Below are positions 45,391 to 63,928 of a stretch of DNA of 63,928 nucleotides, piece after piece. Under the pieces are notes generated by a model, which did no database searches, was not told the origin of the DNA, and was given only the letters and a program-made list of their open reading frames with translations. The position numbers and the translations under genes are program-made. Position 1 is the first letter of the stretch. Every line of letters begins with the position of its first letter. This DNA is from Pirellulales bacterium (GTDB lineage: Bacteria > Planctomycetota > Planctomycetia > Pirellulales > PALSA-1355), in the NCBI GenBank assembly GCA_022844125.1, contig JALHMI010000023.1:1-63928 (forward strand), read 5' to 3'.

Positions 45391-45403
45391 CGGGGACTTC
45401 AAG

Positions 45404-45476
45404 TGGAGCGGAAGGGAGTCGAACCCTCGACCTCTGCATTGCGAACGCAGCGCTCTCCCAACTGAGCTACCGCCCC
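45404..45476 (-). tRNA. tRNA-Ala, anticodon CGC
   Basis: The 73-base cloverleaf folds on the minus strand: acceptor stem GGGGCGG / CCGCTCC with the G3-U70 pair that marks alanine tRNA, D arm TAGCTCAGTTGGGAGAGC, anticodon loop TTCGCAA with CGC at the anticodon position (reads GCG, Ala), and a TTCGA T-loop within the T arm. No CCA is encoded in the reported 73 bases, and the discriminator is A. Confidence 0.96.
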
Positions 45477-52749: not shown

Positions 52750-54285
52750 CTACCGGTTTTCAAGTGCCGCGATCTGCTTGAATTCCTCTTTCAGGCAGCG
52801 GTACAGATTCTGATATGTCGGAAACGCCGCATCGTGGTATTTCTTGGCGGCTTTGTTGGGCGGCGTTTCTTTAACCACGCGAATCGTCGCGGCGCAGGCC
52901 TCTTCGACATTCTTGTACGCGCCAGCGCCGACCGCGGCCAGCAGCGCCACACCGTAGGCTGGACCCTCTTCAGCGTTGATTGTCGCCACTTTCTGGCCGA
53001 ATACATCCGCCTGTATCTGTCGCCAGAGGAGATTCTTCGAACCCCCGCCCGAACCGCGAATCTGCCGGACAGGTACGTTCAGGTTCTGGATGATCTCCAG
53101 GCTGTCACGCATGGCGTAGCTCACGCCTTCCATAATCGCACGCACCATGTGTCCACGCGTGTGAGCCAGCGTGAGACCGATGAAGCAGGCCCGGGCATCC
53201 GGATCGGCGTGCGGCGTGCGTTCTCCCGAAAGGTAGGGCAGAAAGAACAGCCCCTCGCTGCCCGGTTGAATCTTTCCCGCTTCGGCTGAGAGTGTCTGAT
53301 AGGGATCGACCTTCGTGCGTTTCATGGCCGCAATCTCGGGCCGGCACAGCTGGTTACGGAACCATTGGAAGCAACCACCGCCGGACAGGCTGACGCCCAT
53401 CATGTGCCATTTACCGCGTACGGCATGGCAGAACGTATGCAGGCGTCCTAGTGGATCAACTTCGACCGTATCGCTGTGCACGAACATGATCCCCGACGTA
53501 CCGATCGAGGTACTGAGCGTTCCGCGGCTGACAATACCGTTGCCCACGGCGCCCGCGGCGCAATCGCCTGCTCCGCCAACCACGACGCACTCCGTCGACA
53601 ATCCAAGTTCCTTTGCGGCCTCGCGGGTGAGGTTGCCGGTCACATCTTCCGACTCATAGCACTTGGCAAATAGGTCGCGATCGAGCTCAAGCTTGCTGAG
53701 TAACTCGGTCGACCAATCTCGCTTGGCAACGTCTAGCAGGAGCATGCCGCTGGCATCGCTCACGTCGGTGGCATACTCGCCAGTCATGCGGCGTCGCACG
53801 TCATCCTTGGGCAGCAGAATTCTCACGGTCTTCGCGAAGTTCTTTGGCTCACGGTTGCGAAGCCATAGAATTTTTGGTGCGGTAAAGCCGGTGAGCGCCG
53901 GATTGGCGACCATCCGAATGAGCTCCGCGCGTCCGCCCGCGCGTTTCTCCAATTCATCGCATTCGGCCGCGGTCCGCTGATCGTTCCAGAGCAGAGCCGG
54001 GCGAATGACACGATTCTGCTTGTCAAGAAATACCGAGCCGTGCATTTGGCCTGAGAGGCCGATCGCCTTCACGTCGGCCGGTTTGAGCTTGGCCGTTTTG
54101 ACGACCGCCTTCACGGTTTTCACCGTGGCTTGCCACCAATCGTCCGGATTCTGCTCGCTCCAGAGCGGCTTTGGGTGATACGACGGATAGAGGCTCGTCG
54201 CTTCACCCAGAATCTTGCCGCGCTCGTTGATGGCGAGCGTTTTAGTGCCCGAAGTGCCGATGTCGATTCCCAGGAAAATGCTCAT
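52750..54285 (-). CDS. xylB: Xylulokinase
   Basis: A 511-residue FGGY-family sugar kinase, phosphorylating D-xylulose. [14 protein letters not shown] (6-19) is the phosphate-1 loop, GLSGQMHG (98-105) and WNDQRT (118-123) are the xylulose-binding marks, [20 protein letters not shown] and [11 protein letters not shown] follow, and [19 protein letters not shown] carries the C-terminal FGGY signature. Catalytic Asp lies in [12 protein letters not shown]. It is divergent from the solute-binding protein gene, 225 bases apart; together they could serve a sugar path, though no xylose isomerase is nearby. Confidence 0.94.
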
Positions 54286-54510
54286 TCGTTGCCGTACCGA
54301 TGGGGACGAGGTTGGTATTGTGGAAGCGCGAACCTGGTGGCTTGGCCGGATTGTAGCTTAGCCTCTTGGCGGGTCGCAACCGACCGAGCGGGCCTTCCTG
54401 TGGCGGCATTTGACCTTGCTCACGTGCGGAACCTACGATGCAAGGGTAGCGTATCAGACGTTCGCCTTCGAAGTGCAAGCGGTGGTCTGGAGAAATCGCC
54501 CGCCAAGCTC

Positions 54511-55971
54511 ATGACATGTACGCAATTCACCATCCGTTGCTGCCTCTGCGGGTCGACACTGTTTGCCCTGATCATCCTGGGCTGCGCTGCCGAGAAACCG
54601 TCTGAAGAGCCAGTGGCGATCGCCGCTAACTCTGGTTCTGGACTTAGACTGTTGGTCGTTGATGATCCGCAGATGGCGACAGCGATCGAAGCCTTGCGAG
54701 CCGAATGGGAGGCCCGTACTGGGAGCGAGCTGACGATCACGCAAGCCGCTGTGAGCGAAGCCATTGGCGGTCAGGGACCGCCAACGGCCGATGCGATCGT
54801 TTACCCTTCGCGCCTGCTAGGAACGCTGATCGAAAGTCAAAGCATCACGTCGCTACCTGCAGACTATGCAACGAACCGCGAGCTGGCCTGGAGTGATACT
54901 TTCGAGCTGCTGCAGATCGCCGAGACAACGTGGGCGCGTGAGCCGCATGCTGTGCCTTTCGGCTCACCGGTGCTCACGCTGTACGCTCGCAGTGATCTGT
55001 TGGAAGCCGCACGGAAAGAACTGCCGCGAGATTGGCACGCATATCACGAACTTGCTGCCCTACTCGGTCGACGCGAGAATCTGCATGCCGAGGCCCCGCC
55101 CGCGAGTTCACCTTGGCAGGGCTCGCTGCAGCCGCTGGCCGAAGGCTGGGCCGGCCGAGTTCTCCTGGCTCGCGCCGCCCCGTACGTCAAGCATCGCGAT
55201 CACTTCTCTGCGCTGTTCGATATCGAAACTATGGAACCGCTAATAGCTGGGGAAGGGTTTGTCCGCGCGCTGGAAGAGCTGGTGGCTGACTACAAACTCG
55301 GTACGCCCGATCAAATTGAGATGGATCCCGCCGCGGTCAGAGAGGCGTTTCTCGCAGGGCAGTCGGCTCTGGCGATTGCCTGGCCCGCCCACACTGATGA
55401 ACCTGCGCCGCCGAGTCACGTCGCAACCGTGTTTGCCGAGCTTCCAGGGGCAGACGTAGTCTTTAACTTCGCCGACCGAAGCTGGGAGAGACGCCAGGAT
55501 CAGGAAAGTCCTCACGTAACAACGTTGGGACTTGGTGGTCGTCTGGGATCAGTCACGGCAAAGGCCTCTCATCCGCAGCAAGCTCTGCAATTGTTGGCGT
55601 GGTTGAGCGGTCGCGAGTGGGGCGTGCGGGTGTCGAGCGCAAGCCGTGCCACGACGCTTTATCGCCGTTCGCAGATGCGTACGCCACTTCCCTGGGTCGA
55701 TGCGGGGACAGATGCAACTGCCGCCGCAGCGTATGCCAGCAGCGTTCAGGCCGCACTCAGTCGACAACAGTACCTCACCGTGCCGCGAATCCCGGGCGAA
55801 GCAGAGTACATGACCGCGCTCGACGACGCGACCCGTCAGGTTCTTCGGCAAGAGAAGACCCCCACAGAGGCGCTCGCCGAGGCTGCCGTGACTTGGCGCG
55901 AGATTACCGACCGGCTAGGCCGCGATCGGCAAAAAGCCGCCTATCGTGCGAGTTTGGAGTTCGAACGATGA
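54511..55971 (+). CDS. Extracellular solute-binding lipoprotein
   Basis: A 486-residue protein. A lipobox (LIILGC, Cys25) marks it as a lipoprotein. The chain follows the ABC sugar-binding protein pattern: LLVVDDPQMATAIEALRAEWEARTGSEL, then TADAIVYPSRLLGTLIES, LAWSDTFELLQIAET, PFGSPVLTLYARSDLL and AFLAGQSALAIAWP. No permease or ATPase gene is adjacent. The frame is open to 54130, but the ATG at 54511 immediately precedes the signal peptide. It overlaps the HAD phosphatase gene by four bases. Confidence 0.82.
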   Translation: MTCTQFTIRCCLCGSTLFALIILGCAAEKPSEEPVAIAANSGSGLRLLVVDDPQMATAIEALRAEWEARTGSELTITQAAVSEAIGGQGPPTADAIVYPSRLLGTLIESQSITSLPADYATNRELAWSDTFELLQIAETTWAREPHAVPFGSPVLTLYARSDLLEAARKELPRDWHAYHELAALLGRRENLHAEAPPASSPWQGSLQPLAEGWAGRVLLARAAPYVKHRDHFSALFDIETMEPLIAGEGFVRALEELVADYKLGTPDQIEMDPAAVREAFLAGQSALAIAWPAHTDEPAPPSHVATVFAELPGADVVFNFADRSWERRQDQESPHVTTLGLGGRLGSVTAKASHPQQALQLLAWLSGREWGVRVSSASRATTLYRRSQMRTPLPWVDAGTDATAAAAYASSVQAALSRQQYLTVPRIPGEAEYMTALDDATRQVLRQEKTPTEALAEAAVTWREITDRLGRDRQKAAYRASLEFER

Positions 55972-56654
55972 GTCAAATGCGGCAGACTCGGGCCGTCGTT
56001 TTCGACCTGGATGGCCTGATGTTCAACACGGAGGACCTCTATCAGGACGTTGGCACCGAGATGTTGCGCCGCCGCGGTAAGACCTTCGATGCCGAGTTGC
56101 TCGACGGCATGATGGGACGTCCGGCCAACGCGGCATTGCAACTCATGATCGACTATCACGGTTTGAAGTGCACCGTGAGCGAGCTAATGGCCGAAACGGA
56201 TTCGATTTTCGCCACGCTGTTGGAGGATCGGCTCCAGCAGATGCCGGGGCTTGGCGGACTGTTGATGGCGCTCGAACAAGCAGGGATTCCCAAGGCGATT
56301 GCCACCAGTAGCGGGCCGGCGTTTGTCCGGCGGGTGCTTGACCACTTCCAGCTCGCACATAGATTCGAATTTTTTCTTACCTGCGACGACGTTCGCGATA
56401 GCAAGCCGCACCCCGAGATTTACCTACTAGCTGCCGAGAGATTGGGGATTTCGCCCACGGATATGCTGGTGTTGGAAGACAGCCAGAATGGATGTCGCGC
56501 GGCAGTTGCGGCCGGCGCAGTCGTTGTGGCCGTGCCGAGTGGGCATAGCCTCCGCCATCAGTTTCCTGACGCGGCGCTAATCGCCGAGAGCCTCGCGGAC
56601 CCTCGCTTGTATAAGTTGCTTCGACTTACCCCGCCGCGCGGTTCACCGCCTTAG
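55968..56654 (+). CDS. HAD hydrolase, beta-phosphoglucomutase-like
   Basis: A 228-residue haloacid dehalogenase-fold phosphatase. DLDGLMFNTEDL (13-24) with nucleophile Asp13 and acid Asp15, ATSSGPAFV as motif II, DSKPHPEIYL with the conserved Lys as motif III, and LEDSQNGCRAAVAAG as motif IV are all intact. It resembles phosphoglycolate/sugar phosphatases of the subfamily IA. It is coupled to the upstream lipoprotein gene (ATGA overlap) and converges on the next gene with shared TTAG stop bases. Confidence 0.92.
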   Translation: MSQMRQTRAVVFDLDGLMFNTEDLYQDVGTEMLRRRGKTFDAELLDGMMGRPANAALQLMIDYHGLKCTVSELMAETDSIFATLLEDRLQQMPGLGGLLMALEQAGIPKAIATSSGPAFVRRVLDHFQLAHRFEFFLTCDDVRDSKPHPEIYLLAAERLGISPTDMLVLEDSQNGCRAAVAAGAVVVAVPSGHSLRHQFPDAALIAESLADPRLYKLLRLTPPRGSPP

Positions 56655-57574
56655 GCGGCGACGTCCGCCAACACGCGGGCCGGGCGCACGCACCAGTCGG
56701 GACGGGATTGGCCATCCGCCTGAGCTACGAATCGCTCCAGACCTTCCCGGAGCATAGGCGTAGGGCGGGCCAGTACCCGGCTCGCACGCCGACTGCTTAG
56801 GGAGGTTTCCTCGTGCCATTCTGGATCTGCATTTCCGAACTTTGCCTCGGGACAGTGGACGCCTAGGCAGGCCGCCATTTCCCGCACGAAGCGATACATA
56901 CTCGTGCGTTCTGCGCCGGCCAGGTGGAGCAGACCCTGCAGCCTCGTTTGTTGTGCGTGCCACAGCAGGTCGGCCAAGTCACTGGCTAGTATAGGGGTCG
57001 CATAGCGCCTGCCGTCCAACTTCGGAAGTTGACCGCGGCGGAGCGACTCGTAGGCCTGTTCAGCAAAGCAGCTGGTGGCATGTTCGCCGCTCCAACCATA
57101 GGCGTGCGTACGTATTACGAGTGCGTGGGTATTGGACAGCGCCCTTTCCACGGCCAGGCAAATTCCGGCGGCCGCCGTTGAGTCCAGCGGCGTTGACAAT
57201 TCATCGTGAAACATCCGCGGGCCACTGAACACGGCATCGCTGGTAATTACAGTCAGGGTGCAACCCTGCGCAGCGGCGGCCTCCGCGAGCTTCGTGGCGA
57301 TCACAGGTTCGAACTGCCTCTCGCATGGGAACTGGTCCGCATCCCAACTCGATCCGCCCAACAACGGGCAATGCACAACCCACTGGGGTCGCCAAGACTC
57401 GAGCAATTCGGTGATCGATGTTGCGTCCGCGGGATTCCAAGGAGCCGTGCGCATGGCCGGCGATTCGACTGCCCGATGGCGGTAACCGCCAAGGACTTCG
57501 CACCGACCGGAGAGGGCCCAGGCCAGGTTACTGCCCAGCATGGACTCGACGCCTGTCACAAGCACTCGCTGCAC
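56651..57574 (-). CDS. RmlD-like extended SDR lacking the YxxxK pair
   Basis: A 307-residue protein from the GTG at 57574, which has AAGGAGG six bases upstream. TGVESMLGSNLA (7-18) resembles the GxxGxxG of dTDP-4-dehydrorhamnose reductases, but the middle Gly is Ser11. TSDAVFSG (111-118) matches the STDYVFDG motif. Where family members have Y-x-x-x-K before LxGE, this one has A135...C139 before LAVE143. Both catalytic residues therefore appear absent. The C-terminal part is poorly conserved. It is divergent from the NTP-transferase gene. Either a non-catalytic RmlD-fold protein or a changed enzyme. Confidence 0.75.
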   Translation of the reverse strand: MQRVLVTGVESMLGSNLAWALSGRCEVLGGYRHRAVESPAMRTAPWNPADATSITELLESWRPQWVVHCPLLGGSSWDADQFPCERQFEPVIATKLAEAAAAQGCTLTVITSDAVFSGPRMFHDELSTPLDSTAAAGICLAVERALSNTHALVIRTHAYGWSGEHATSCFAEQAYESLRRGQLPKLDGRRYATPILASDLADLLWHAQQTRLQGLLHLAGAERTSMYRFVREMAACLGVHCPEAKFGNADPEWHEETSLSSRRASRVLARPTPMLREGLERFVAQADGQSRPDWCVRPARVLADVAA

Positions 57575-57866
57575 TTTCGGCCTCCTTGCCAATCGGGGTG
57601 AGGGTGTCCCGGTCTGCGGTGGCCCGTCGGAGCACGCGCGGCAGAACCGAGGGTGGGGGCGGGATTGTAGGGGGAACTTGTCACCAGGCCAAGACGTTCT
57701 GCCAGGCCAAGCAGCAGACGGCGGTGCTGTCATGCTGTGCCTAGTATTGCTTCCTGGCTCGACGGCCCGTCTTGACCTTTGGCGCGCGGTATTGCTAGAC
57801 TCCCGCCCGCTTTTCGGGGCTCTCTCTTGAAGATTGGTGCCTGCCAAGGAAGGAACGGCAGCTGAC
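57575..57866. other. Shared upstream region of the two divergent cluster genes
   Basis: No gene is evident. The stretch holds the ribosome binding sites and, presumably, the promoters of the minus-strand SDR gene and the plus-strand nucleotidyltransferase gene, plus a candidate promoter at 57772-57801. Confidence 0.4.
57772..57801 (+). promoter_or_regulatory. Candidate sigma-70-type promoter of the nucleotidyltransferase operon
   Basis: TTGACC (57772-57777) and TAGACT (57796-57801) are spaced by 18 bases, 65 bases upstream of the start codon. It is only a sequence match to a -35/-10 pattern. Confidence 0.35.
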
Positions 57867-58604
57867 ATGCTGAATACGCTTGGAATCATCGAAGTCCGTC
57901 AGGAAGCACAACGTCACTGGAGCATTGGGCGAAAGCTGGGTGGCAAGTCCATTTTGGAACGCGTCGTGCGCCGCGTGACGGACAGCGAACGCCTGGATCG
58001 GGTTGTCGTGCTTTGTGCCAGCGAGCAACTCGCGAGCGTTCGCGGGCTTGTTCCTTCAGACGTGGAAGTCGTAGCGACCGAGAGCTCCGATTTACTTTCC
58101 ACGGCCATTGCCACTTGCCGACGCTTGAACGTCAAGTCGCTCGTTCACGTTTCGCATGAAAACCCCTTTGTCGATCCCGAGCTGATCGATCGACTGGTGA
58201 ACACCGCTGACGCTCATCCAAACTGCGACTATATCGGCTATTGCCGGGGCGATGGACGTCCCGCCGTGCTGACTCATATGGGCATGCTGGCCGAATGGTG
58301 TTCGGTTGCGGCATTGTGCCAGGCGGCACGCGGCGTCTCGGTCGACCGCCGGCATCTCACGGCTTCACTGTATGCACATCCCGAGCAGTTTAATGTGCGC
58401 CTACTGCCGGTGCCTGTAGAACTCGACCGCGAGGACTTGCGCCTGCGTCTCGATGGCGAGGAAGACTGGGAGCATGCCCATGTCATTTACGAGGCCCTGG
58501 GCCACGATGAGTGGGACTGGCGGCAAGTGGTTGACCTGCTGCACGGTCAGCCCGCTCTGCGTAGCCGCATGGCGCATTTGAATCAGGCAAAACAGTGTGC
58601 GTAG
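57867..58604 (+). CDS. SpsF-like nucleotidyltransferase with altered nucleotide-binding loop
   Basis: A 245-residue protein. The overall run (IIEVRQEAQR, GGKSILERVVRRV, DRVVVLCAS, ENPFVDPELIDRLV) follows the cytidylyltransferase/SpsF pattern, but the loop after the IIxxR (Arg11, Arg16) reads HWSIG instead of the LPGK that contacts the nucleotide, and the metal-binding acid in the GDxP motif is replaced by Glu98 in SHENPF. I therefore doubt ordinary NTP transfer. AAGGAAGG lies upstream of the ATG at 57867. It is followed by the HAD-fold gene after 69 bases. The alternative is a distinct, active branch. Confidence 0.75.
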   Translation: MLNTLGIIEVRQEAQRHWSIGRKLGGKSILERVVRRVTDSERLDRVVVLCASEQLASVRGLVPSDVEVVATESSDLLSTAIATCRRLNVKSLVHVSHENPFVDPELIDRLVNTADAHPNCDYIGYCRGDGRPAVLTHMGMLAEWCSVAALCQAARGVSVDRRHLTASLYAHPEQFNVRLLPVPVELDREDLRLRLDGEEDWEHAHVIYEALGHDEWDWRQVVDLLHGQPALRSRMAHLNQAKQCA

Positions 58605-58673
58605 CATTTGCGGGTAACGAGCGGCCGCGGCCAGGGTCGGCCCGGCCCGGATCACCAAGTGAGAAGGATTCTC

Positions 58674-59489
58674 ATGAGTGTCGTTGCGTCGGACTTGCTG
58701 TCACGGGGCGCCTTCGGCGCGTCGCACGAAACGGTACCTGTCGCAGACCTGGCGGGAATCGTCTTCGACGTGCCCGACGTGTTTTACGATGCCACGCTCT
58801 GGCGCCGTTGGCTGTTTCAGCTGCTGGTAAGAATGCGAACACTGGCCGACTACGTCGAGTTTCACGCGCGGTGGGAGCGCCATTTGAGCGACGTGCACTG
58901 CGGACGCCGAGAGTTTGGCGAGGCGCTGCAGACGTTTCTGCTCAACTACGGCCTGAGTTGGGCGCAAATCGATGAGATCGAAGCAGCCTCGCGGATCCAA
59001 CGGCAGGTGCTCGAGGTCGATGTCAGGGCGCTGCCGGGCGTTGTCAGCACGATTCGAACCCTCAATCAACTCAAAGTCCCACTGGTCGCCTGGGCGGATG
59101 TTCCGCTGACTAGCGCGAAGCTCGCCGAGAGGCTCGACCGAATCGTGCCACGTGCCACGTTTCAGGCCGTAGTGACATCCTTTGAAGTTGAATGTACTCA
59201 GCCGGATGAGCATTGCTATACGGTCATGCGGGAAGCGTTCGCTGCTTCGCCTGGGATGGTGCTTTACGTGGGACATGACCCGGTTCACCTTGCCGCCGCG
59301 CGCCAGGCCGGGTTGCTAACGGCTGCCTTGAGCTACTTGCCTGCAGGTGAAATTGACTTTGCGCTCCCCCGGCTGGAGTATCTCGCGGAAATCGCAACTT
59401 CGCGCCGCCAGGTAGCAACGCGGTGCCCGGTGGTCGTCTCGCAGTCGCCAATCGAAGAAACCTCGCCCTGTTCGGGAGATTGTCGATGA
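58674..59489 (+). CDS. HAD-fold protein lacking the catalytic residues
   Basis: A 271-residue protein. The fold is recognisable from FDVPDVFYDATLW (31-43), LVAWADVPLTSAK (137-149), VVTSFEVECTQPDEH (166-180) and LYVGHDPVHLAAARQAG (197-213). In the HAD motifs the second Asp is Pro34, the motif II Thr/Ser position is Trp140/Ala141, the motif III Lys position appears to be Gln176, and the second acid of motif IV appears as Leu206. The first Asp (Asp32) remains. It overlaps the next gene by four bases. It may be a binding or regulatory pseudophosphatase. Confidence 0.78.
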   Translation: MSVVASDLLSRGAFGASHETVPVADLAGIVFDVPDVFYDATLWRRWLFQLLVRMRTLADYVEFHARWERHLSDVHCGRREFGEALQTFLLNYGLSWAQIDEIEAASRIQRQVLEVDVRALPGVVSTIRTLNQLKVPLVAWADVPLTSAKLAERLDRIVPRATFQAVVTSFEVECTQPDEHCYTVMREAFAASPGMVLYVGHDPVHLAAARQAGLLTAALSYLPAGEIDFALPRLEYLAEIATSRRQVATRCPVVVSQSPIEETSPCSGDCR

Positions 59490-59683
59490 TTGCGCCGATT
59501 CGACCTCAACAGCCCTCGACGCCACGGATGCTCGGGGCTCGCCGCGCGGTGGGTGAATTGTTCCTGCACAGTCGCCCCCACACGACGGAGTCCAGGCGGG
59601 AGCTATCTCGCAGGGCGACGTGGATTCTGTTGGGCTGGGCAGCAGTCGTGGCCATCGCTTACCTGATACGAGGCCGGCGCTAG
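59486..59683 (+). CDS. Small single-pass membrane protein
   Basis: A 65-residue protein whose ATG lies in the ATGA overlap with the HAD-fold gene. A Pro/Arg-rich cytosolic-looking part (residues 1-45) leads to one membrane segment (WILLGWAAVVAIAYLI) and an RGRR end. I recognise no family. Because it is translationally coupled to the HAD-fold gene, it probably works with it, perhaps as a membrane anchor. Confidence 0.6.
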   Translation: MIAPIRPQQPSTPRMLGARRAVGELFLHSRPHTTESRRELSRRATWILLGWAAVVAIAYLIRGRR

Positions 59684-59736
59684 AGACACTCTCTGGTCCT
59701 TATCGCCGCCTGGCATGAAGACGTGAGGCGCGGTGC

Positions 59737-61425
59737 ATGCCCGAACATGGTGACGTCTTCGCCGTGTTTCGCTCCGTCGCGGTAGCGGTCGGGATCGCGA
59801 TATCCGCGTACGGTTTCGGCCGACCCCTGGCTCGTTGGTTCGAATGTGCCCGGCGAGATCGGGTGGAACGCGGAGTGTTCGCCTTGCTCTTGGGGTTTCC
59901 CACTGCCGGGCTGGGCCTTGCAGTCTCGGGACTGCTAGGTGGGCTTGGCACAATTTCCGTGGCTGCTATGACGCTGGTCGGCTTACTCCTGGCAAGCGTG
60001 GAAGTCGCCTGTTCGATCGCACATCTTGACCGTCAGGGCGGGTTCTTTGGCACTCTGCGTACGCTGCGCTTCTCAGCGAGTCACCTGGTATGCAGGAGCG
60101 TTTGTTGCCTGGCAACTGCGGTACTCGCGCTTACCTTGATTTCGGCCCTCGCGCCGCCGACCGATCCATCCGTGCTCGCTCAAACGCTGGATGCTCCCAA
60201 TAACGCACTCTTGGCAGGGACGCTTTGGAACGGCGACCAACACGGCCTACAGTCGCTCTCGCTTTCGCAACTATGGTCGCTGTGGGGCCTGGCCCTCGAC
60301 GGACCGGTGGCTGCTGGCCTGGTGCACTGGCAATTGACGATCGTCCTGGCCCTGGCCGCGACATACCTGGCTCGGCACTGGGTGAAACCCGAACTTGCCT
60401 GGCTGGCTGGGCTGTTGGTTCTCGTGTCGACCGGATACCGGGTTCAGGTCGGCACATTTTCGGCTGGGATCAGCATCGGACTGGCCGGATCGCTCGTTCT
60501 ACTCGCGGCGGCCAGCGTGCGCGAGCATGGCCGTAAAGCCGTCGGGCAGATCAACTTCGCGATGGCGACACTTGTCGCAAGTCTTCCTGCCGAATCAACA
60601 GACTTTGTCGAATTCAATGCCTGGCAATACCCATTCCTGTTGATCGCGCTCAGCGGTCTCATGCTGGGAGGTCCGCGGCAGAGAATGGCCTTCGTCGCTT
60701 GCTTGGGACTGATCATAGCTGCGGCGCTGTTGCCCAACGGAAACGGGCTGATGGCATTCGCTCTGCCCGGCATCGCGGTTACCAGCGCCGCGGGCGCCGC
60801 GGTGCTGCTGCACTTGCCGACGCGGGCTCGGGCAGCGCTCCTGGGGCTGGTGGCATGCCTGGCCGTGGTGCAGGTAGGCGATATGGCTCGTTCGGTCCTC
60901 CCGAAAACTGGCGTTGCTCTGGGTTGTCAGTCGCGCGATGCTTATCTGCTCGCCGCGTGCGGAAGTTATCGCGCCGCCGCGGTGTTCAACCAGATCCGGC
61001 TACCCGAGCAGCGACTATTCAGCACGACCTCCGGGTGTTTGTACTTTGCCTCGTCAACCAAGATGGGAAGCGCGATCGCTGAAGAATCGCAAGTCGCCGC
61101 GGCAGAGGTCGTCGCCCAAGCACGTGAGCAAGGCTGTGACTACTTGCTCCTTGCCGAGCCCCTGAGGCCAGAGACCGGTCGAGCCTTCGACAGCGGTGCT
61201 AGCGACCGTCTTGCGCCGGACGGCGAGTCCCCAGTCCCGGAAAAGTTTGCCGGAGCCGCAGAAGTTATCCCAATTGTTGAGTACGAATTTGCCGATGAAT
61301 ACCAGCGAACCACCCGGTACAGACTGTGGAAACTTCAAAGTCGCCGGGCCGTAGCTTCGCCAACTTTCGAAACCGCGACCAGCGGAGAGGGGGTGAGCTC
61401 GCGGCCGCGACCTCTAACGAGGTGA
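59737..61425 (+). CDS. Large polytopic membrane protein, unknown function
   Basis: A 562-residue protein with about ten or eleven membrane segments and a soluble C-terminal third (from about residue 400). The pattern resembles GT-C type or O-antigen-polymerase-like proteins with an extracytoplasmic acidic loop (APPTDPSVLAQTLDAPNN, about 138-155), but I cannot assign a family. It follows the small membrane protein gene after 53 bases and ends three bases before the start of the lipoprotein gene, so it belongs to the same operon. Confidence 0.65.
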   Translation: MPEHGDVFAVFRSVAVAVGIAISAYGFGRPLARWFECARRDRVERGVFALLLGFPTAGLGLAVSGLLGGLGTISVAAMTLVGLLLASVEVACSIAHLDRQGGFFGTLRTLRFSASHLVCRSVCCLATAVLALTLISALAPPTDPSVLAQTLDAPNNALLAGTLWNGDQHGLQSLSLSQLWSLWGLALDGPVAAGLVHWQLTIVLALAATYLARHWVKPELAWLAGLLVLVSTGYRVQVGTFSAGISIGLAGSLVLLAAASVREHGRKAVGQINFAMATLVASLPAESTDFVEFNAWQYPFLLIALSGLMLGGPRQRMAFVACLGLIIAAALLPNGNGLMAFALPGIAVTSAAGAAVLLHLPTRARAALLGLVACLAVVQVGDMARSVLPKTGVALGCQSRDAYLLAACGSYRAAAVFNQIRLPEQRLFSTTSGCLYFASSTKMGSAIAEESQVAAAEVVAQAREQGCDYLLLAEPLRPETGRAFDSGASDRLAPDGESPVPEKFAGAAEVIPIVEYEFADEYQRTTRYRLWKLQSRRAVASPTFETATSGEGVSSRPRPLTR

Positions 61426-61428
61426 GTC

Positions 61429-61728
61429 GTGACGAGAGCATTTGCCGCACTGGCTGCGATTTTGACCTGCTCCCTGGCCGGCTGCACGGCCATGTGCCAA
61501 TCGCCCTGGGACTACTGTAACGCCGTGCTGGACGGCTGCGGGACCCCGAATTGCAATTTCGGCGCGCGATACAACTCCTCCTTCGCCCCCATGAACGGCA
61601 CTCCAGCCACGACGCCCGTCGAGCCGACTCTGGCCGATGGTGCGCCTACGGACGCCGGAGAGCCCGCCACCGCCGGCGACGAGCCAGGTGAGATCACGGA
61701 CAACTATCTCGAGCCTCTGCCCGAGTAA
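61429..61728 (+). CDS. Small Cys-rich lipoprotein
   Basis: A 99-residue protein. The GTG start at 61429 follows GAGGTGA and comes three bases after the membrane protein's stop codon. The lipobox SLAGC has Cys19. Six more residues are cysteines or aromatic within the next 30 (CQSPWDYCN, CGTPNC), then the chain becomes rich in Pro, Thr and acid. A short secreted lipid-anchored tail of the cluster; no known family. Confidence 0.65.
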   Translation: MTRAFAALAAILTCSLAGCTAMCQSPWDYCNAVLDGCGTPNCNFGARYNSSFAPMNGTPATTPVEPTLADGAPTDAGEPATAGDEPGEITDNYLEPLPE

Positions 61729-61807
61729 GCTCGTGGCCTTCGAGCAACGGGAGTCCGCCGCTCAATTGGTCGGCTGATGGCGTATTGCGTACGCCGCCAG
61801 CTCGTCT

Positions 61808-62179
61808 GAATTGTCAAAGATCCTAACTGGCAGGGCAGATTGCTCGCCCGGCTTTTTCTCGCGCTCCAATTTTCAGGGTGTGTGGATTCTGAAACGCGCG
61901 AAAATGCAGTTTCGCACCCACACACAGGCTCTTTGGAGAGACGATTTTCTTACCCGTGTCCTCCAACACCCCGTGTTGACCGCGTGCTTTCGGATTTGCT
62001 TGGGCGGTGACACAATCCTCTGAATGTACCGTACCTGAAATACTGGCCACAATTCAAATGCTTGTGGACACTTGGTCGAAGTGGGTTGGCGATTAGTGAA
62101 CCCCTTTCAGTAAAACAGGTTGCGAAAACCCCAGGACACACACGCGGGCAAGTCCCGCCAGCCAGTGCGATTTTTTCAG
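61808..62179 (-). repeat. Dispersed ~371-bp repeat, copy B
   Basis: Inverted relative to copy A (3472-3842) and co-linear with it: the blocks at 62166-62179, 62020-62050, 61918-61925 and 61808-61820 match its landmarks with spacing within one or two bases. The inner stem is better here: GTGTGTGG pairs with CCACACAC, and GCGAAA with TTTCGC around a six-base loop. Base differences between copies reach perhaps 30% overall. Open frames differ between copies, so it is probably not coding. Confidence 0.7.
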
Positions 62180-62326
62180 ATGCCGTCTCATCGCTCATCG
62201 TTTTGGCGACCCGGTTCCACTCGATTCGGCCAGGACAAGTCGAACACACGTCCATGCGCAGACCTCCTCGCTGAACCGCGCCATTGCGGCAGCGGAAGGG
62301 CCTGAAAGTCTGCCGAATGATTCAGG
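62180..62326. other. Short intergenic stretch between repeat copy B and the PEP-CTERM remnant
   Basis: No gene is evident. It continues the gene-poor stretch that begins after the lipoprotein gene at 61728 (61729-61807 also holds nothing I recognise). Short frames here run into copy B and share no pattern with copy A. Confidence 0.35.
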
Positions 62327-62527
62327 CTAATGCAGCCCGTGGCCTGACTTCAAGGAGAAAAACGGCCGGGGTGACATCTCGCCGGAATCGGAAGTGGCAA
62401 TAATTGGGAACGTTTGTTCGCCGGGTCCGGCGATGATGTGATGGCCGCCAATGACTGTCGTAACTGCCCACGACGGCGAGGCTGCGAGGAGGGTTAAGGC
62501 GATTGCCACCCAGGTTCTCGTCAACAT
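62327..62527 (-). pseudogene. Truncated paralogue of the downstream PEP-CTERM protein
   Basis: Sixty-six residues with a ribosome binding site (CAGGAGT). A signal peptide-like start leads to AVTTVIGGHHI and EQTFPIIATSDSGE, which match AVTNVAGGNHV and FQTFPIIGSSNSGE in the intact gene at 62642-63217. After the shared stretch the frame continues for about 15 residues and ends, and no PEP-CTERM end is found. It is therefore a decayed tandem copy. Confidence 0.7.
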
Positions 62528-62578
62528 CGGAGTTACTCCTGGGGGTGTGGAGTAGTAACTTCATCGAGCTAAGAGCGC

Positions 62579-62613
62579 AAAAAAAAGCCGCACGCAGTTT
62601 TCTGCGTGCGGCT
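62579..62613 (-). terminator. Intrinsic terminator of the PEP-CTERM gene
   Basis: Twelve-base stem AGCCGCACGCAG / CTGCGTGCGGCT with a TTTT loop. On the minus strand it is followed by TTTTTTTT. It lies about 30 bases past the stop codon of the intact PEP-CTERM gene. Confidence 0.92.
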
Positions 62614-62641
62614 CTGAAATCTGCAACTGTTCGCGTCGAAC

Positions 62642-63217
62642 TTAGGCGTTACGACGACGGCGACGGATAGCGACCGCACCGAGGCCAGCGGCACCGAACA
62701 GAGCGATGATCACGCTGCCCGGCTCGGGGACCAAGGTGACGCTGCCGTTGGTGAAGGTACCGGGCGCACCAACCTGGTTGTACACGGCCGAGGGGCCGAA
62801 GGTTTCGCTTTCCAGGGCGAGCAGGTACTGACCTGCAGCGGCGCTGTTGGTGTCAATCGTGATCAAAGCCACGACACCCGTCGGTACGCTGCCGGCGCTG
62901 GTGGTGGTGAAGTAGGCCGTCTCAAGACCCGGGGCTAGAAATGCCCCGAAGTTGCCCTGACCAACGTTGTTCGGCTCGAACACCGTGCCAGTGATCAGAT
63001 TCACGTTCGTGATGATCGGGCCGAGGGCGTCCATCACCAGGTACAAGTCGATGCCGGCCAGAGTTTCACCGGAATTGGATGAACCGATGATCGGGAAGGT
63101 CTGAAAACCGGTGCCGACCGTGAAGACGTGGTTGCCGCCGGCAACGTTCGTGACGGCGAAAGCCGACGTCGACAGCGAGGCGACCAACGCGATTGCAAAA
63201 AACGCTTTACGAAGCAT
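62642..63217 (-). CDS. PEP-CTERM sorted exported protein
   Basis: A 191-residue protein. A signal peptide ends in SAFA, the mature part is a compact beta-rich domain (GGNHVFTVGTGFQTFPIIGSS, AGIDLYLVMD), and the C-terminus has VPEPGSVI, a membrane segment and IRRRRRNA, the PEP-CTERM anchor recognised by exosortase. I start at the ATG at 63217, with AAGGAG upstream. Its paralogue 100 bases downstream is broken. The function is unknown, probably a surface or extracellular matrix protein. Confidence 0.85.
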   Translation of the reverse strand: MLRKAFFAIALVASLSTSAFAVTNVAGGNHVFTVGTGFQTFPIIGSSNSGETLAGIDLYLVMDALGPIITNVNLITGTVFEPNNVGQGNFGAFLAPGLETAYFTTTSAGSVPTGVVALITIDTNSAAAGQYLLALESETFGPSAVYNQVGAPGTFTNGSVTLVPEPGSVIIALFGAAGLGAVAIRRRRRNA

Positions 63218-63765
63218 GTAGAAGTCTCCTTGAGTCACTCAGTAGTTGGATTTCGTAGTTGATTGGGTCAGTTCTGAAAAACTTCAGTCCTCGACCAGAC
63301 ACACTTTCTGACATCCTTGTCGTTCTGCCACCCAAAACTCGTTGACACCCTTTAAGGGAGCGAACCCCCTGTTGGATTTTGTTGTGCATACCAAGCCATC
63401 TGCATTGGCAAGTGGCACGCTGGAAGAGCCGGAGGTCATGAATCGCGCAAACAAGAACGTTCGAGGAACGTGATTGTTTGCGAGATTTCCGTGGTGCGAG
63501 TTAGCGGGTTTCGCACCAAGGATGCTGAAGTGGCGGACTGGCCGCGTTCGAAACATCCAACGGAAGACCGCCGGGACAGAGCGCCCACGGCGTCGCATGC
63601 TTGGAATGTCGTGAGAGGGATCGCCTTAGGCGATGCAACTTCTCACGTCAGCACACATTAGCTTCCCTTTTTAGATCAGGAGCCGGAATCGGCTTACATG
63701 GCCCTGATTGTAGCTAAAGGTTTAAGGATTGCAACCCAATTCCGAAAAAAATCTAACTAAATTCC
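63218..63765. other. Long gene-poor region with hairpins upstream of the PEP-CTERM gene
   Basis: I see no supported gene. It contains GGTGCGA/TCGCACC arms (63493-63517) and a larger inverted stretch CGTGAGA (63610-63616) with TCTCACG (63641-63647) around ATCGCC/GGCGAT. These could belong to a long leader of the PEP-CTERM transcript or be remains of repeats. Confidence 0.45.
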
Positions 63766-63789
63766 GGCTGCCCCCATTCGGGGGCAGCC
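63766..63789 (-). terminator. Intrinsic terminator of the gene at the right edge
   Basis: Stem GGCTGCCCCC / GGGGGCAGCC with a four-base loop. On the minus strand it is followed after about ten bases by TTTAGTTAGATTTTTTT. It lies 19 bases past the stop codon of the partial gene. Confidence 0.85.
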
Positions 63790-63808
63790 GAAACCTGTTA
63801 CTACATCG

Positions 63809-63928
63809 TTAGTTCAGGCCCGCGATCAGCGATTCCAGCAGCGAATCGTCGAGATCCAGGGCGTTCGTTACTTCATTGGCCGCCAGCAGCAGCGAGCGGG
63901 TCGTGGGCGTATTGGCCTCGGCCAGAGC
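63809..63928 (-). CDS. C-terminal end of an unidentified protein (partial)
   Basis: The last 39 residues plus stop of a gene that continues beyond the right edge. The end reads ALAEANTPTTRSLLLAANEV and later SLLESLIAGLN, alanine- and leucine-rich with aspartates (NALDLDDSLL), helical in look. The stop is followed by a good terminator. I do not recognise the family; the acidic, leucine-rich tail resembles the ends of large planctomycete surface proteins, which is only an impression. Confidence 0.6.
   Translation of the reverse strand, partial: ALAEANTPTTRSLLLAANEVTNALDLDDSLLESLIAGLN

Follow-up and report, generated by a model that had tools for sequence, protein, structure and literature searches.

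How can several proteins that seem to belong to one bacterial pathway persist when they appear to lack the means of catalysis? The question arises from a gene cluster in the DNA analysed here (hereafter the window: 63,928 nucleotides of a Pirellulales bacterium, the full length of one contig from a genome of 6.4 Mb). A preliminary description made from the sequence had assigned three consecutive genes to the RmlD-like SDR, SpsF-like nucleotidyltransferase and HAD families, each apparently without its catalytic residues, and had joined them to a membrane module as a possible scaffold or signalling system. To our knowledge, most of the pseudoenzymes described so far are single proteins, many of them eukaryotic, and a literature search at the level of titles and abstracts found no paper concerning the proteins of this cluster.

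Layout of the locus

The features of the locus are as follows, in positions of the window.

55914-56654, plus strand: HADn, an ordinary HAD phosphatase and conserved flanking gene (HAD_2, E 1.9e-27)
56651-57574, minus strand: SDR, a protein of RmlD fold with the Tyr/Lys pair missing; putative GTG start, C-terminus -AA
56654-56659, minus strand: codons for the C-terminal Ala-Ala of SDR
57664-57692, minus strand: promoter-like site of SDR, TTGGCC-17-TACAAT
57772-57801, plus strand: promoter-like site of the NT operon, TTGACC-18-TAGACT
57867-58604, plus strand: NT, cytidylyltransferase-fold protein (SpsF/NeuA type) with an incomplete CTP loop
57891-57935, plus strand: degenerate loop of NT, EVRQEAQRHWSIGRK (counterpart in G097:C189, QARMRSTRLPGK)
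58674-59489, plus strand: HADx, HAD-fold protein with the nucleophile Asp present and the motif II Ser/Thr, the Lys and the second motif IV acid missing
59486-59683, plus strand: sTM, 65 residues with one predicted span
59737-61425, plus strand: PMT-related polytopic protein, about nine predicted spans by hydropathy
61429-61728, plus strand: LIP, lipoprotein with a GC-x(2,3)-C-xx-P-x-DY motif

The first description was correct in its open reading frames, in the four-base overlap between HADx and sTM (59486-59489) and in the two gaps (53 and 3 bases). The coupling of a three-gene run to a membrane module stands from NT and HADx onward and fails for SDR, which lies on the minus strand. Since SDR is divergent from NT, only the genes from NT to LIP can form one transcript, and a single operon of all six genes is ruled out by the opposite strand of SDR. 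HADn, next to the cluster, is a HAD of the ordinary kind that Pfam matches in full; it is convergent with SDR, and the two gene ends share four bases. It lies within 2.5 kb of 31 of the 78 NT rows in our alignment. A search of positions 54000-63928 against Rfam gave zero matches over threshold. Elsewhere in the window we observed a tRNA-Ala gene (anticodon cgc; 45403-45476, minus strand) and, downstream of the cluster at 62642-63238, a protein with a PEP-CTERM-like end (VPEPGSVIIALFGAAGLGAVAIRRRRRNA) that has relatives of family F17 in G001 and G002.

Folds and residues of the three proteins

The folds first proposed for the three proteins were borne out by profiles and, for NT and SDR, by structural models. 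NT passes the Pfam cut-offs of CTP_transf_3 (E 7e-7; 29.7 bits, cut-off 22.6) and NTP_transf_3 (E 6e-7), a profile search of the PDB returns it as a cytidylyltransferase, and its AF2 model (mean pLDDT 90.8) has the cytidylyltransferase 6oew as best structural match (Z 26.6, rmsd 2.4, 233 residues aligned). We take the loop R-x-x-S-x-R-L-P-G-K, in the form found in G097:C189, to be the holder of the CTP triphosphate. Its two Arg and its Lys occur jointly in only 2 of 78 NT rows, G004 and G097:C189. The loop is incomplete in the other 76, among them the window, where both Arg are present and the Ser and Lys are missing; the G001 loop has three of the residues (Arg, Ser, Lys). The loop positions otherwise vary across the 78 rows, with no substitute conserved set. 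At the two Asp presumed to bind metal, the window has Glu at the first and Asp at the second, and Asp is found in 39/78 and 34/78 rows, respectively. The fold and the half of the protein outside the loop are strongly conserved (D103, D108, E143, D200, W201).

These counts come from 80 rows reduced to 78 by dropping two fragments, and the tree from 77, one further row having been dropped. In the tree the two complete-loop NTs pair (97/90), one of them on a long branch, and the base of the remainder is not resolved, which makes a single, early loss of the loop likely rather than certain. Since the loop is lost almost throughout the order, its loss is probably older than the family of the window. 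A profile scan of genome contigs with a five-row NT alignment gave 29 loci, the 18 strong ones from Planctomycetota records and the weaker ones mostly from other phyla. G097:C189 groups its intact-loop NT with NeuB and with an HADx that has the Lys, and the same genome also contains a degenerate NT.

SDR matches RmlD_sub_bind well over the cut-off (PF04321, E 5.8e-16; 58.8 bits, cut-off 27), and falls under that of the NCBIfam equivalog TIGR01214 (55.4 bits versus 224.05). Its AF2 model (mean pLDDT 84.8) matches RmlD 2ggs (Z 26.0) and MAT-beta 4ktt (Z 25.7), with many RmlD and epimerase entries tied within 1 Z. The Tyr/Lys pair (YxxxK), present in the RmlD outgroup row L107:14830, is missing in all 14 of the SDR rows aligned; in G023 only the Tyr is found, and both positions are variable. 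The middle Gly of TGxxGxxG is found in just 5 of the 14 rows, the window not among them. What does not vary is the C-terminus: all 19 members read (14 and a further five) end in -AA, which follows a stretch that varies in sequence and is modelled with low confidence. The same end occurs in 20 of 452 other ORFs of the families examined, and eight of these 20 are HADx (8/38 HADx), so that SDR is not alone in showing this tail signal. The tmRNA tag of the genome is AEDSFALAA, with ALAA at its end, and the -AA of SDR is consistent with either a degron or a tail used for docking.

For HADx, which passes the cut-off of PF00702 (E 3e-8), the claim that all three genes lack catalytic residues holds only in part. 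It stands for the loop of NT and the Tyr/Lys pair of SDR, whereas the nucleophile Asp of HADx is present in motif I of the window protein (FDVPDV) and it is the other motifs that are deficient: the +2 Asp is replaced by Pro, the motif II Ser/Thr is missing (LVAWADV), the motif III Lys is changed to Gln (CTQPDE), and the second acid of motif IV is missing (GHDPVHL). Alignment restores none of the missing residues in the window proteins. The +2 position is Gly in several relatives whose other motifs are intact, and the Lys is retained in several of the relatives whose motif I reads D-x-G. All three cluster-bearing members of the window's family share the change from Lys to Gln.

The Lys of HADx goes with the neighbouring genes. 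The glycan genes scored here were NeuB, F04 (under the Pfam cut-offs, with weak glycosyltransferase-type matches only), F06 (a Wzx-like flippase) and F10 (just under the CDP-alcohol transferase cut-off). The Lys is present in 12/17 loci with any of these four versus 4/22 without (Fisher p 0.0025, phylogeny ignored), a grouping that was decided on once the table of 39 HADx was known and that G047 and G065 entered through F06/F10. For adjacent NeuB alone, the figures are 6/8 versus 10/31 (p 0.045). Counter-examples occur both ways: HADx lacks the Lys in G004 and G072 despite adjoining NeuB, and four HADx keep it without glycan genes. As a separate observation, His replaces the last motif Asp in 14/14 F10 members (L108:12928-13848, L110:8052-9224 and 12 more), and the Asp is present in 3/3 members of F49.

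The losses in the three neighbours differ in reach: the NT and SDR signatures are missing nearly order-wide, that of HADx chiefly in loci without glycan genes. The order-wide residue tables rule out a single event in this cluster as the source of all three losses.

Could these proteins be changed enzymes, still catalytic through other residues or on other substrates, such as an NT transferase with another loop or a weak HADx phosphatase acting through its remaining Asp? The strongly conserved fold and non-loop half of NT speak for such a reading, as do the HADx nucleophile and those D-x-G relatives that have the Lys. We nevertheless regard it as improbable, because the loop positions of NT are each variable with no conserved set in replacement, the Tyr and Lys positions of SDR vary too, and the window HADx is without both Lys and motif II Ser/Thr.

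The parental locus and its trimmed form

The gene order is conserved as a whole in three of the four genomes of the window's family that were examined. In the fourth, G003, both the cluster and a close HADn match are missing: either the cluster is dispensable or it sits in an assembly gap. Over all NT loci, SDR, NT and HADx stand jointly in 6/78 and SDR with NT in 8/78. Cluster genes stand with NeuB, F04, F06, F10 or further glycosyltransferases in G007, G013, G025 and G004. The order in G007 is SDR | NT - NeuB - HADx - F04 - Wzx-like flippase - F10, and in G004 it is NT - NeuB - HADx - ... - glycosyltransferases - sTM - PMT. Since the SDR of G004 lies on another contig, the full parental order is a composite of genomes. 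The extra genes of these relatives include NeuB (E 1.9e-77), Polysacc_synt_3 and several glycosyltransferases, and what had been sketched as a nucleotide-sugar pathway can be named: a NeuB-type nonulosonate or surface-glycan locus. The three cluster-bearing family genomes are reduced to NT, then HADx with sTM as the next gene, and after these only the PMT-related gene and LIP. That the window cluster is a trimmed form of the nonulosonate surface-glycan locus of other families in the order is well supported.

No NeuB is found within the window cluster; in each of the three family members that carry the cluster, a strong NeuB lies at another place in the genome. The single strong NeuB of the window genome is on contig C3, and two weak matches are on C16 and C2. 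The C3 region (L127:7505-18029) is a separate, apparently complete nonulosonate locus, with dehydratase, NeuB, Epimerase_2 (NeuC-like), NeuA-like, flippase, glycosyltransferase-like and AsnB-like genes. The notion that the organism makes no nonulosonate is thus unsupported.

At about E 1e-25 or better, NT matches occur in 78/296 genomes. These 78, out of 93 NT genomes, served for the comparison with NeuB, which is strong in 37/78 NT genomes versus 38/218 without NT (p 6e-7, phylogeny ignored). The other 41 of the 78, some of them incomplete genomes, have no NeuB match at E 1e-40, so there NT is not simply a partner of NeuB. NT and NeuB are historically linked, yet NT persists without NeuB. At closer range the link thins out: NeuB is within 3 kb of only 6/78 NT rows, and any of NeuB, F04, F06 and F10 is in range of 18/78, some contigs ending too early.

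Unrelated genes might also have come together by accident of position, in a variable chromosomal slot beside HADn and functionally uncoupled. The flanks of the slot are indeed conserved while its content varies (the HADn-F07 flanks recur beside SDR in G043, G047 and G076), and for 23/78 NT rows not one of the nine partners scored lies in range, in some cases because a contig ends. Against such an accident, SDR co-occurs at genome level with NT (11/18 SDR genomes, p 0.0016) and with NeuB (13/18, p 2e-5), both values counting adjacent cases and ignoring phylogeny; the 18 SDR genomes are those at E 6e-80 or better out of 22, and G061 joined the 78 NT genomes for the SDR test. SDR occurs without NT in the remaining 7/18. 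Moreover, the sTM-PMT pairing recurs at other places. We judge mere juxtaposition very unlikely.

The membrane-side genes tell a less uniform story. Small ORFs like sTM lie directly upstream of PMT-type genes in several relatives. The window polytopic protein has zero Pfam matches over cut-off; against PMT (PF02366), its relative in G012 is over the cut-off, that in G001 just under it (22.4 versus 22.7), and that in G002 gives no match. An Asp in the first external loop is a functional residue of PMT / GT-C glycosyltransferases. At this position Asp is found in 4/11 rows, with Ser in the window, Glu in G001 and Ala in G002; an Asp in only four of 11 rows is not a fixed mark, and to call the PMT-related protein dead would be unsafe. 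LIP is near 20/78 NT rows, directly downstream of NT or of NT-HADx in the f15, f16 and f18 genomes, and it follows the PMT-type gene in G023. It is also found away from NT, so that the LIP-NT link is weak and a shared chromosomal slot may explain their adjacency. Many members of the LIP family (61429-61728, L117, L192-L202 and others) also have a GxRxGSxFxP stretch, and the family repeatedly adjoins NT, PMT or GlgC-type genes.

Are the remaining genes, then, slowly decaying relics without present function, left behind after this family had lost most of the glycan locus by deletion? Neutral erosion of this kind would agree with the disappearance of NeuB and the glycan genes from the cluster, with the absence of the cluster from G003, and with the PMT-related protein, which is shorter, fast-evolving and the least conserved of the cluster (34-46% identity). 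However, the ORFs are intact in three genera, and codon positions one and two are more conserved than position three. Across the cluster genes of G000, G001 and G002, third positions are 28-45% identical and first and second positions 50-75%, identities computed on the longest ORFs and so, in the case of SDR, NT and HADx, also covering bases upstream of the likely starts. For NT the three genera share 58-61% of amino acids, with about 69/74/42% at codon positions 1/2/3, a conservation similar to that of the flanking genes F07 (62-65%) and F09 (54-61%). The promoter-like sites are conserved as well: the divergent pair between SDR and NT recurs in three genera with spacers of 17-18, the SDR hexamers being shared by G001 (spacer 17) and G002 (18) and the NT site having the same spacer in G001 (TTGACG) and G002. 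Positions 57500-57900 contain three promoter-like sites versus 0.1 in shuffles, the third overlapping the NT start. Finally, the loss of the NT loop, almost order-wide, probably predates the family. Judged by their sequences, the cluster genes do not look like decaying genes, and erosion seems to us unlikely.

Possible regulatory subunits and the closest known systems

The observation from which we started is therefore confirmed in part: the folds, the layout and the losses in NT and SDR stand, while the placing of SDR in the operon and a total loss in HADx do not. The scaffold or signalling role suggested for the cluster is compatible with the constraint on these sequences and with the conserved promoters. 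We give roughly even chances to the reading that NT, SDR and HADx descend from a nonulosonate glycan locus and now serve as regulatory subunits without catalysis. Where the cluster proteins come from is well supported; how they work we infer. The proteins remaining from that locus, without the catalytic residues of their parents, would now be non-catalytic subunits. NT and SDR would bind a ligand or a partner without turnover, by analogy with GMPPA/GMPPB and MAT-beta/MAT-alpha2, and the invariant -AA of SDR would be a docking tail or a ClpXP-type degron setting the level of SDR. sTM, the PMT-related protein and LIP would form the membrane side of a system that acts on how envelope glycan or lipoproteins are assembled.

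A wider version of this reading is possible, and we put it forward only tentatively. Across the order, sugar-nucleotide pseudoenzymes from a nonulosonate locus (a CMP-sugar synthetase fold that lacks the CTP loop, an RmlD fold with the -AA end and, in part of the families, a HAD fold that is dead) would have become a non-catalytic complex under proteolytic or allosteric control. This complex would steer how envelope glycan or lipoproteins are assembled, and in about half of the NT genomes it would do so independently of nonulosonate synthesis.

Whatever the mechanism, the cluster is a real, ordered case of linked bacterial enzyme-fold proteins without catalytic signatures whose parent locus can be traced. 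The passage from intact locus to trimmed cluster is laid out as a graded series in sequenced genomes, where the order in which catalysis and partners were lost is directly testable, and it points to an unexplored layer of control in the planctomycete envelope.

Among known systems, the CMP-nonulosonate (and CMP-Kdo) cytidylyltransferases NeuA and SpsF resemble NT in fold, length and C-terminal half and, for some NT relatives, in their proximity to NeuB and a HAD; they differ from it in the CTP loop, incomplete in nearly all NT rows, and in the first metal Asp, which is Glu in the window. In the phosphate route to Kdn and sialic acid, NeuB, a HAD and NeuA act in succession (NANS, NANP and CMAS). 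In G097:C189 and other relatives, the neighbouring NT, NeuB and HAD genes correspond to these three steps, in contrast to the window cluster, where NeuB is missing and NT and HADx are without key residues. The dTDP-4-dehydrorhamnose reductase RmlD is like SDR in fold and length; SDR departs from it in lacking the Tyr/Lys pair, in scoring under the equivalog cut-off and in its conserved -AA end.

Two further systems are parallels in manner of working. MAT-beta (MAT2B), the RmlD-fold regulatory subunit of SAM synthetase, matches SDR in sequence (E 4.7e-4) as well as in structure (Z 25.7). MAT-beta contacts its partner by inserting the C-terminal tail into it (PMC4107924), and the conserved C-terminus of SDR may be comparable to this partner-contacting tail; the SDR tail differs in sequence, and the comparison is one of working only. 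GMPPA, in turn, is a non-catalytic nucleotidyltransferase paralogue that inhibits GMPPB (PMC11228364). NT may be like it as an inactive nucleotidyltransferase fold kept alongside a live relative, although NT belongs to a different subfamily.
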